A stretch of DNA of 64,000 nt, taken from NCBI GenBank assembly GCA_029945375.1, contig CM057070.1, positions 62,001 to 126,000 of the forward strand. The letters are read 5' to 3'. The position numbers were made by a program, and so were the translations under genes. Shown here piece by piece: positions 43,201-46,200 of the stretch; positions within the stretch are counted from its first letter, which is position 1, and each line of letters opens with the position of its first letter. Under the pieces are notes generated by a model that saw only the letters and a program-made list of their open reading frames with translations, made no database searches and was not told the origin of the DNA. The stretch is from Agaricus subrufescens (lineage: Eukaryota; Basidiomycota; Agaricomycetes; Agaricales; Agaricaceae).

Positions 43201-46200
43201 TTTGAAAATATGCAGAAATTGTAGATTGTTTATTAAATACCCAAAGCTTTTGCTGCTGAACTAATAGATTCATATACTATTTTTTCTTTAAAAGATCTAA
43301 AACTTCTATTTATTGAGAAGGACTTCCAGCACCTAGAGCTCTTTGTTTTCCAAACATTGGGTGATTTTTACCTTGTTTAGATAATGACATTAGTTGTCCT
43401 TGTCGCGTCTTTTTTGAATGTTTTTGTCCTGTCATTGGACTTTTACCAATCCTAGCTGCAACTAATTTAGCTATTGTTTCCTTCGAATGTTTTCTTCCCG
43501 AATTAGCTGTACTGATTTTAAGAAGAGCTTCTTCTGAGTGTTTATATCCCCAACTAGATCCAGCTGTCGATAAAACATTATACTCGGGTTGTAAGAGATC
43601 TAAATAATATTGTTCTCGTTCTAAACACTTCTTAGGTTTACAATACTCAAGTATAGTAATAGAAAATTTTGAAAAACCGTATTTAAGCAAAGCGTTACAA
43701 ATAACCATCTTAGAATTTTTAAGTAAATGGCTTGTGTTTAAATAATTTAAAATTCTTCTGTTTAAAACTATAGAAGATCCTACATATTTCTTACCATTTT
43801 CTTTATTTTCCCACAAATAAACACCCGATTTACCTTTGTTATCTTGCAAAAACTCTAATTTATTCAGATCAGCGTTTGCATATGTTTTAACGCCAAGACT
43901 TTTCGATAGGGGGAATTGACATAACATTAGAGATACAAAAAAATCTGTCCAATCGTAAGGTGAAGGGGAAAATAAAACAGAAAACTCTGTAGGTACACCC
44001 AAAAAGAACAATAAAAAAAAGGTCATAGAATAAGAGCTAAAATTAGAACTATCACTATGCTTTAATAAGGCATCCCTTTTTTGATTCTTGATTTTATTTT
44101 TTATTTTAACAATACCTTTATCTTCTAAATGTTTACCTTGAGTTATCATAATATAGACTTTTCTAAATTTTAAGTAATTAGTATATTTACCTGCAAATAC
44201 ATTGAATTTATCAAAATAATTAATTAATAACCCTGCTGTTTTAAATCCTGAACTTTTATAACACCAAATACCACTGCTATATTGAGAAATATTACCCAAT
44301 TTAACTTTATTGTATAGGTGTTTTATAGGAACAGCATCATTTTGTTTGATAGAAAATTCTAATCTAACGCTAAATCCTGTTTTATGTGTTTTACTTTGGA
44401 CAACACTAATGTGAAAACATCCATCAGCTTGAGTAAAACCTGCTAATCAATAATTCTCTAGCGTAATTTTATTAGAAGGTAGATTTAATGTAAAGTTAAA
44501 ATTTTCAGTGTAATTATGTTTAATTAATTGGTCGTATTTAGGATTACTTACTAATTTACCATTTATCAAAGATAATATAATAGACATACCTTTTTTATTT
44601 CTACAAATATATCTTACTGCTCTTTTGTCTTTTATTTTGTACACATGACCATGTCCTATACGAGATTTAATAGAATAAGCCAAAGATATATCGTTTTCAG
44701 CAAAAATAATATGCAATTCATTTTGACCAAACCATCCATCTCCTTCAATTAATCCAGCTAAAAAATAACCAAATTCATTATCTGTAAGATTAGCAACTTT
44801 AGCTGGAGTAGGAACATGCTCGGAGATTAAAGGCAAACTTAAATAACTATTATAAGTATTATTAGTAACTGCCGTAGCTTTTGTACTAAAACTAAAGTTT
44901 CCTGCTGATTGTCCAGATAGATTAAATAAGTAAATTTTTCCTAACGCAATAAATGCGAGTGGATTACTTAAACCGGAGTTTCCAGCATATAGCAAGATTT
45001 TTTCCCATTCACCTAAAGAGAAAAAGCAGCACTGAATTTGCAGCTGCATAAGGCCCAGGTGAAGTTCTGTAGACACAAATTTATCCACCTATTAAGAATT
45101 TTAATTTTACCCGGTGTGTAAATTGAATTACTCTCTCACTAGACTGATTTTTATATGAAATTAAATCTTAATTGGACTATGTCTTATCCCTTCTAATTTT
45201 AACTTTAGTTAAGGATTTTCCCATATAGTCTCTGAGGAACCCTAGAAATAACTCAATTTAAAGGTTTCCTGCAAGTTGTATAAGGCGAATTAGTGATTTT
45301 CACGTACTCTTTAAAGGTTTTCTGCCTTGTCTTTTTTTGTTTTTTCTTTTTTGTTTTTTTTAATCCAAAGCTACCTTACCTCTAGTTAAGAAAACGTACA
45401 CTAACTATAAATAGTTTCTTGCATATAGGGAAATTATACTCCATAAATTTTTCAAATATGGACGACGTGGAAATTTAGCTATACTCCCAACTTATATTTC
45501 ATAGTTTTATGCATAAAAGGCAAAATAAGAATTTTAAATGTTTCTACTGATTTAGCTAAAATATAAATTCTATAGTTTCCTCCAGATTTATGAATAGAGG
45601 ATTTAATATTATATTCATTGTTTAAATACTCACTAAGTCTTAGAACATCAGCGTAAATAAAACTATCCGTACAAAGATATAATCCTTTGGATGTTCCTCT
45701 CGATCCGTCTTGCATCGTCCAATGAGCCATAGCGATAGGAGTTAATAAGGATAAGTCTAGAGGAACTACTTTAATTTTACTCCCGGGCACCCTTCCATAA
45801 TAAAGGCTAGGCTCCACTGGGGCATAAAATTTGAAATAAAACTCATTTAACACAGGTAAAGCTCTACTTCAAAAGTTTAAATTTGTATAAATTTTACCAG
45901 TTCTCTTATCTAAATAAGACCTTTCTCTGTATTTACCTGAGCAGAATTCACCTAAAGAATTTAACACACTTAAAAAATAATCTTTTTTAGCTAAGCTTTG
46001 TGTGAAGCCAAATCTTGCATTTAACCCTCTTGGTGGCAACTCTAATTGACCGTCTCCTAATAGAGAACCAAATAAGATCTCTTTAACTTCCTTCGAAATA
46101 CAGGGCTTATTCTTTTCTAATTTTGCACTCGTAGCTATAAGTTGAGAATAAAGAATTAAATTTTCTAATTCATCTAATCCTACTGAGAACATGTGATGTG

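Follow-up and report, generated by a model that had tools for sequence, protein, structure and literature searches.

A LAGLIDADG and a GIY-YIG endonuclease joined in one frame of a mitochondrial cox1 group I intron, probably by entry of one gene into the other

The stretch of DNA analysed here (64,000 nucleotides in full, hereafter the window) carries members of two homing endonuclease families, LAGLIDADG and GIY-YIG, on a single open reading frame, and the question raised by this locus is how the two came to be joined: by the stacking of two introns, by chance read-through or a sequencing error, or by the invasion of one endonuclease gene by another. The frame lies within cox1, which is mitochondrial, intron-rich and on the minus strand. 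With two cox1 proteins as queries (the first 300 residues of one, 60 residues of a second), exon pieces of cox1 were found from 62570 down to 42952, and a further COX1 match was seen within the frame 35015-36100. The immediate setting of the joined frame is as follows.

46172..46243, minus strand: end part of the upstream cox1 exon (tblastn with the cox1 start of protein P0141, 83% over 24 aa)
45089..46171, minus strand: upstream neighbour group I intron with putative boundaries (LAGLIDADG_2 frame fused to the exon, 45479-46273)
45083..45088, minus strand: 6-base cox1 exon GTGGAT (Val-Asp) between two group I introns (position and P1 complementarity with GTCTAC)
43042..45082, minus strand: group I intron holding the joined frame, about 2.0 kb (P1, P10, P3, P4, P6, P7, P8 and covariance model)
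42952..43041, minus strand: downstream cox1 exon (tblastn, 81%; ACAAG complementary to TTTGT as P10)

The LAGLIDADG_2 frame of the upstream neighbour intron was recognised by Pfam (E 9e-37), and the 3' core of that intron (45172-45248) was itself one of the cores used to build the covariance model described below. Since the exon that follows it is likely only 6 bases long, the intron-encoded joined frame begins two codons 5' of its own intron; in relatives such as P0006, a 13-residue stretch across this exon and the intron is likewise read as one exon-intron frame. The contig to which the window belongs is C44, 131,367 bases long, in an assembly of 44.65 Mb; nuclear copies were ruled out, as all 21 genome matches listed sit on that contig (27 candidates, all scored). 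Among viral contigs, 18 pattern matches were obtained, none of them a relative. Elsewhere in the window, 27273-28703 (minus strand) holds an NADH-dehydrogenase-type frame whose repetitive end resembles collagen (Pfam Collagen at 421-469, E 4.5e-8) and is probably a translated repeat.

The joined frame itself is made up of the following parts.

43310..45088, minus strand: joined LAGLIDADG and GIY-YIG frame, 592 codons under code 4, stop included (open reading frame)
44093..44803, minus strand: double-LAGLIDADG domain, residues 96-332 (Pfam, motifs, structure matches, predicted fold)
43889..44092, minus strand: linker, residues 333-400, largely predicted disordered (blastp and pLDDT)
43577..43828, minus strand: GIY-YIG catalytic domain, residues 421-504 (Pfam E 1.3e-10)
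43343..43543, minus strand: NUMOD3 repeats, three KHS units and a partial fourth (Pfam E 8e-17)

An earlier note on this DNA had described both families in one frame of about 590 codons, each with its motif residues, and both statements hold. A single in-frame TGA, read as Trp under code 4, stands directly before the second LAGLIDADG motif. The two LAGLIDADG motifs, LAGLIEGDG (residue 110) and LAGFTQADG (residue 215), have an acidic residue each, and the GIY-YIG part displays GVY...YVG from residue 422 and an EREQ...PEYN block from residue 488. Pfam placed LAGLIDADG_1 at residues 215-312, corresponding to the second half of the double domain only. Solved double-motif meganucleases match the LAGLIDADG part both by sequence and by fold: all 50 PDB matches listed by Foldseek were LAGLIDADG meganucleases, among them I-PanMI (E 3e-16, TM by target 0.64, rmsd 5.9). 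The AlphaFold model consisted of two confident domains (block pLDDT of 84-98 for residues 101-340 and of 91-97 for the GIY-YIG residues 421-500), with pLDDT below 50 at residues 347-396, in the linker, and over the first 90 residues. On motifs and predicted fold, the first part is a putative double-motif LAGLIDADG endonuclease with the paired alpha-beta meganuclease fold.

The GIY part was aligned to I-TevI (1ln0/1mk0) with a weak sequence match (E 0.19) and with Arg and Glu in register; the aligned I-TevI positions of Arg and Glu differ between two I-TevI crystal chains, which we take to be catalytic mutants. Judged by its motifs and by these two residues, the second part is a putative GIY-YIG endonuclease. 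As to its C-terminal modules, NUMOD3 was found by Pfam in two stretches (the best at residues 531-563), while NUMOD1 is broken and lies 3' of the frame's stop. The 'four NUMOD3-like repeats' of the earlier note proved to be three of KHS type, at residues 516, 533 and 556, followed by a fourth, GKNHPMFGK at 573, that is only partial.

Whether one intron or two is present can be read from the ribozyme core, both halves of which flank the endonuclease region.

44892..44997, minus strand: 5' half of the core, with P3 5' TCTTGC, P4 TGCTG/CAGCA and P6 5' AGG..CTTTAG (complementarity)
43055..43136, minus strand: 3' half of the core, with P6 CTAAAG..CCT, P7 GACA/TGTC, P3 GCAAGA and P8 (complementarity and covariance model)

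Pairings were named by eye, then located and checked for complementarity. P1 can form between GTGGAT (45088-45083) and GTCTAC (45074-45069), ending in U.G, P8 starts with CTTAA/TTAAG, and the ACAAG of the following exon can provide P10. The predicted pairings thus comprise P1 with its U.G, P3, P4, P6, P7, P8 and P10, together with the terminal G, as in a group I intron. A single set of P/Q/R/S boxes was present within 45082-43042, in agreement with the earlier statement that this is not a case of two stacked introns. Seven other 3' cores of the window, this one excluded, were used to build a covariance model, which recovered the present core at 43138-43053, scoring 42.1 bits (E 1.4e-7). A hidden second core, named earlier as what would overturn this reading, was not found in the insert between the two halves: the best score of the same model there, with all positions scored, was 5.7 bits (E 2.2), and no R/S-type sites were present. 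A twintron, in which the GIY-YIG part would have a ribozyme core of its own and be spliced separately, follows arrangements described for fungal mitochondria in the accessible parts of PMC12308204 and PMC8393795, but was rejected on these core searches and is very improbable here, given 42.1 bits for a core that was itself outside the model.

None of the pairings predicted for the ribozyme falls within the insert. When the intron was folded freely with the loop deleted, P3 (6/6 pairs), P4 (4/5) and P6 (8/8, that is 3/3 and 5/5) were recovered; P1, P7, P8 and P10 were absent from this fold, P7 with P3 being a pseudoknot beyond the reach of such a fold. With one core only and its pairings outside the insert, both endonuclease parts most likely sit in loop L6 of one ribozyme. 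Rfam gave no match at E <= 1 within 41000-48500, a silence of little weight here since introns are nonetheless present. Over the whole window, the small 3' group I core model matched 26 sites at E <= 1 on the 64-kb minus strand, seven of them model members, as against one site for Rfam at its gathering threshold. As a separate observation, P7 of this intron (within 43124-43055, minus strand) is GACA/TGTC where 11 other listed sites have GACT/AGTC, so that both sides have changed and the pair is kept, in a listing whose pattern demanded pairing of the fourth base.

The order of events is recorded in what surrounds the GIY-YIG gene.

44098..44113, minus strand: left copy of the flanking repeat, ATTGTTAAAATAAAAA (15/16 bases as at 43146-43161)
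43146..44097, minus strand: insert, consisting of linker, GIY-YIG, NUMOD3, broken NUMOD1 and one repeat copy (comparison with tail-keeping relatives)
43162..43309, minus strand: NUMOD1 remnant of the GIY-YIG gene (tblastn with P0001 and other GIY-YIG ends)
43099..43161, minus strand: original LAGLIDADG C-terminus, 20 residues (20/20 residues as in P0006 and P0010)

After KGIVKIK the LAGLIDADG frame departs from the ending seen in most of the listed relatives and runs through the linker into the GIY-YIG gene. The ending has survived in full (20/20 residues) downstream of the GIY-YIG stop, where its codons double as P6 3', P7 5' and P3 3' of the ribozyme. Neither this intact C-terminus nor the stop before a broken NUMOD1 had been noticed earlier. 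The NUMOD1 remnant, intact in P0001, is interrupted by stops and frame changes (tblastn pieces in different frames), and with this end lost the GIY gene of the window may be in decay. None of 1987 random minus-strand pairs of the window scored as high as the flanking repeat (44113-44098 versus 43161-43146).

Relatives were surveyed among 181 LAGLIDADG rows, these being the matches listed in three sets (the best 120 of 465, the best 120 of 607 and all 43). Reading of C-termini showed the tail at the end in 167 of the 181 (150 by a strict pattern). The remaining rows comprised two with altered tails, five fusions at the same junction, the window among them, five stopping soon after the junction, P0193, which is cut at the junction, and P0146, which is another fusion. 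The tail displaced beyond the GIY block, the flanking repeat and the broken NUMOD1 together mark the LAGLIDADG gene as the resident and the GIY-YIG gene as the insert. On this sequence evidence, and with insert-free relatives at hand, the probable course of events is that a LAGLIDADG gene was already resident and that the GIY-YIG gene inserted itself into its 3' end, within what is predicted to be loop L6 of the ribozyme, in support of the earlier suggestion of one endonuclease gene invading another. The reverse order, with a LAGLIDADG gene invading a resident GIY-YIG intron as in Leptographium cox1-212, has the same protein order and a published case in its favour (PMC10448965, accessible part), but we rejected it as very hard to credit, given the position of the displaced tail at the P6/P7/P3 stretch of this ribozyme and the 167 listed rows that keep the tail with no GIY at the junction. 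A recent copy of a local GIY gene was rejected as a source, as other GIY matches on the same contig reach at most 45% identity compared with 58-62% for same-junction relatives.

The same host and the same junction recur, with different linkers, in four database proteins (P0001, P0003, P0005 and P0008), so the search for the fusion elsewhere at this site, proposed earlier, was successful. P0008 is listed as Exserohilum turcicum and represents 21 member sequences; the other three are metagenome proteins. P0001 keeps both NUMOD3 and NUMOD1; the remaining three of the four, broken or incomplete, stop short within GIY or NUMOD. Among the matches listed, the closest to the window's LAGLIDADG part was P0193, an Agaricus bisporus fragment (92% over 235 residues), which makes a mushroom-type fungus the likely source. 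Identity of this part was 88-92% to P0193, P0002, P0004 and P0006, of which the latter three bear the tail, and 66-76% to the fused four. The GIY part showed the opposite tendency: the fused four were 58-62% identical to it, and the nearest unfused GIY proteins with at least 150 residues matched were no more than 50% identical; over shorter stretches, identities to the window were 59% over 113 residues for P0146, 55% over 93 for P0121, 54% over 138 for P0139 and 52% over 130 for P0144, P0146 and P0139 being fusions with other hosts.

These relatives bear on the reading that the joined frame is an accident, either a chance read-through or a sequencing error, with the LAGLIDADG gene really stopping soon after the junction and the GIY gene separate or dead. 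The linker has no homologue among 222 proteins at E <= 1e-3, where blastp returned the self-hit only, and its openness by chance is not negligible, as shuffling its 226 bases 5000 times left the stretch open in 77 cases. Moreover, the GIY end is broken, and five LAGLIDADG rows, P0012 among them, stop within about 16 codons of the junction. The four database proteins joined at the same junction through different linkers, one of them standing for 21 member sequences, nevertheless make a sequencing error unlikely, and we regard an accidental frame as improbable overall. P0012 reads KIKQKIKNQKMDADL, compared with a 15-residue stretch of the window, and most of the insert start is common to both (KIKNQK.DA.L), which suggests that the insert probably exists unfused as well. 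In P0030 and P0184 the post-junction stretch is too short for comparison with the insert start. As relatives are known as ORF-called proteins only, fused frames are over-represented relative to unfused inserts.

Other nested arrangements were observed in the same survey. P0139, P0141 and P0146 are LAGLIDADG-then-GIY-YIG fusions with other hosts, and P0141 carries a cox1 exon, LAGLIDADG_1, LAGLIDADG_2 and GIY-YIG on one frame. In P0002, P0009, P0017, P0026 and P0177, another double-LAGLIDADG gene has entered the host LAGLIDADG gene known from the window, in frame and within its N-terminal half, and in P0009 and P0017 host stretches (ISEHV...GLIEG and the like) were seen on both sides of the entering gene. 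By sequence comparison, the host LAGLIDADG gene is a recurrent target for nested endonucleases.

The insert may have been gained repeatedly, or gained once and often lost. The GIY parts of the five same-junction fusions formed a single clade (100/96) in a 46-row tree, separate from P0139, P0141 and P0146; bootstrap values for this tree had not quite converged (0.987), and its deeper forks are tentative. The LAGLIDADG tree comprised 80 of the 181 rows (six marked as fusions, the others among the 30 closest in similarity, and 45 taken from across the remaining rows), and in it the five same-junction LAGLIDADG parts were scattered, each next to an unfused, tail-bearing row. The neighbours P0004, P0164 and P0188 stood on starred branches, and P0065 and P0201 on weaker ones; the sister branches of P0001 and P0005 were unstarred (94/77 and 88/91). 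Forcing the five same-junction rows together was rejected (p-AU 3.8e-7, on a quick tree of 79 rows with P0146 left out). Inclusion of P0146 gave six presence/absence changes for six fusions, at least five of them forced by well-supported branches. Scattered LAGLIDADG parts with a single GIY clade are the pattern expected of a gene homing into one site, without proving it; that the GIY clade actively and site-specifically homes to the LAGLIDADG gene has, in our judgement, at best about an even chance and perhaps a clearly lower one.

The strongest competing explanation is that the insertion happened once, long ago, and was since inherited and also moved along with the intron as a unit, with many precise losses and a GIY gene no longer homing alone. 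Across pairs of the five fusions, LAGLIDADG identity rises with GIY identity (r 0.68, with 5 of 120 permutations as high), which an old insertion, carried along and often lost, fits as well as or better than repeated homing does. The 15/16 repeat would also allow precise loss, by recombination across it or with uninvaded alleles, and the GIY ends are broken or short. Against a single ancient event, five presence/absence changes are required on the tree for the five same-junction rows, and four of the fused rows have a tail-bearing sister at 88-95% identity, the remaining one having a sister at 77%. We consider the single ancient insertion a serious possibility, falling somewhat short of even.

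Under the alternative of homing, the insert would be a GIY-YIG gene that is mobile in its own right and that cuts, or once cut, at the 3' end of this LAGLIDADG gene. Uninvaded LAGLIDADG alleles would be cut there by the GIY part and would acquire the insert through break repair, while the LAGLIDADG part would cut intronless cox1, thereby moving the whole intron, and would perhaps aid splicing. With its landing place in the loop immediately ahead of P6/P7, the invader would leave splicing unharmed, and it would be translated as part of the frame that begins in the cox1 exon, along the lines of the 'core creep' idea (PMC8393795 and PMC10448965, accessible parts). A decay stage is predicted by the endonuclease life cycle as set out in the accessible part of PMC8393795. 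The joined protein could possibly combine two DNA specificities and spread to two different sites. Taken to its full extent, this account describes a GIY-YIG lineage that is a parasite of a parasite, homing to the 3' end of one LAGLIDADG gene, where codons and core overlap, in ascomycetes and likely basidiomycetes, and becoming by in-frame fusion a nuclease with two targets, through which the intron reaches empty cox1 and the GIY-YIG gene reaches introns not yet invaded; we put it forward tentatively, as somewhat doubtful in its entirety.

Should the GIY-YIG clade target the LAGLIDADG gene, selfish DNA-cutting genes would themselves be hosts to site-specific selfish genes, with the ribozyme-coding end of an intron gene as the landing site, and the joined frame would be a natural case of two nucleases of different specificities on one chain. 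The series of forms seen here (uninvaded, probably invaded with a stop, fused, and broken) makes it possible to trace how a nested endonuclease is gained, becomes fused and decays.

Among known systems, the nearest is the complex cox1-212 intron of Leptographium sp. WIN(M)1376, for which an in-frame LAGLIDADG and GIY-YIG fusion is described in the accessible part of PMC10448965 and restated in that of PMC12308204. According to these parts, a single group I intron there holds both endonucleases, joined in frame to one another and to the cox1 exon, as in the window. The residents differ: in Leptographium, GIY-YIG is the resident and LAGLIDADG the invader, arriving with a partial group I module, whereas in the window a resident LAGLIDADG gene was probably entered by GIY-YIG, at another cox1 site and with no second core found in the insert. 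The biorfic introns Podospora anserina nad1-i4 and cox1-i7 (printed once as cox3-i7) and Hypomyces aurantius cox2-i1, as presented in the accessible part of PMC4964425, are similar in that an optional endonuclease frame, together with a short post-stop stretch, enters an intron already bearing a frame. The window shares with them a nested second endonuclease gene and insert-free relatives, but where they have a second or interrupted frame it has a single open frame in place of two separate ones, with the displaced tail of the resident on the ribozyme core. The rps3-LAGLIDADG fusions of the Ophiostomatales (PMC12308204 and PMC10448965, accessible parts) likewise have an endonuclease joined in frame to an older intron-borne frame, the host frame there being a ribosomal protein and in the window another endonuclease.

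Exserohilum turcicum P0008 and the proteins P0001, P0003 and P0005 have host, junction and GIY clade in common with the window, but differ in their linkers and in LAGLIDADG parts 66-76% identical to it; a literature search found no paper describing these fusions. No GIY-YIG gene within a LAGLIDADG gene at this cox1 site was found in the accessible parts of PMC10448965, PMC12308204, PMC4964425, PMC8393795, PMC7487136, PMC6221350, PMC5626475, PMC4019555 and PMC4162613, nor was a description of this junction found in the literature searched, the coverage of which was thin for subscription journals. In-frame fusion of LAGLIDADG and GIY-YIG is thus already known, and fusions at the same site are present in databases without being named as such; what is new here is that GIY-YIG was probably the invader, that the resident's displaced tail lies on the ribozyme core, that the junction recurs and that the GIY parts fall into a single clade.
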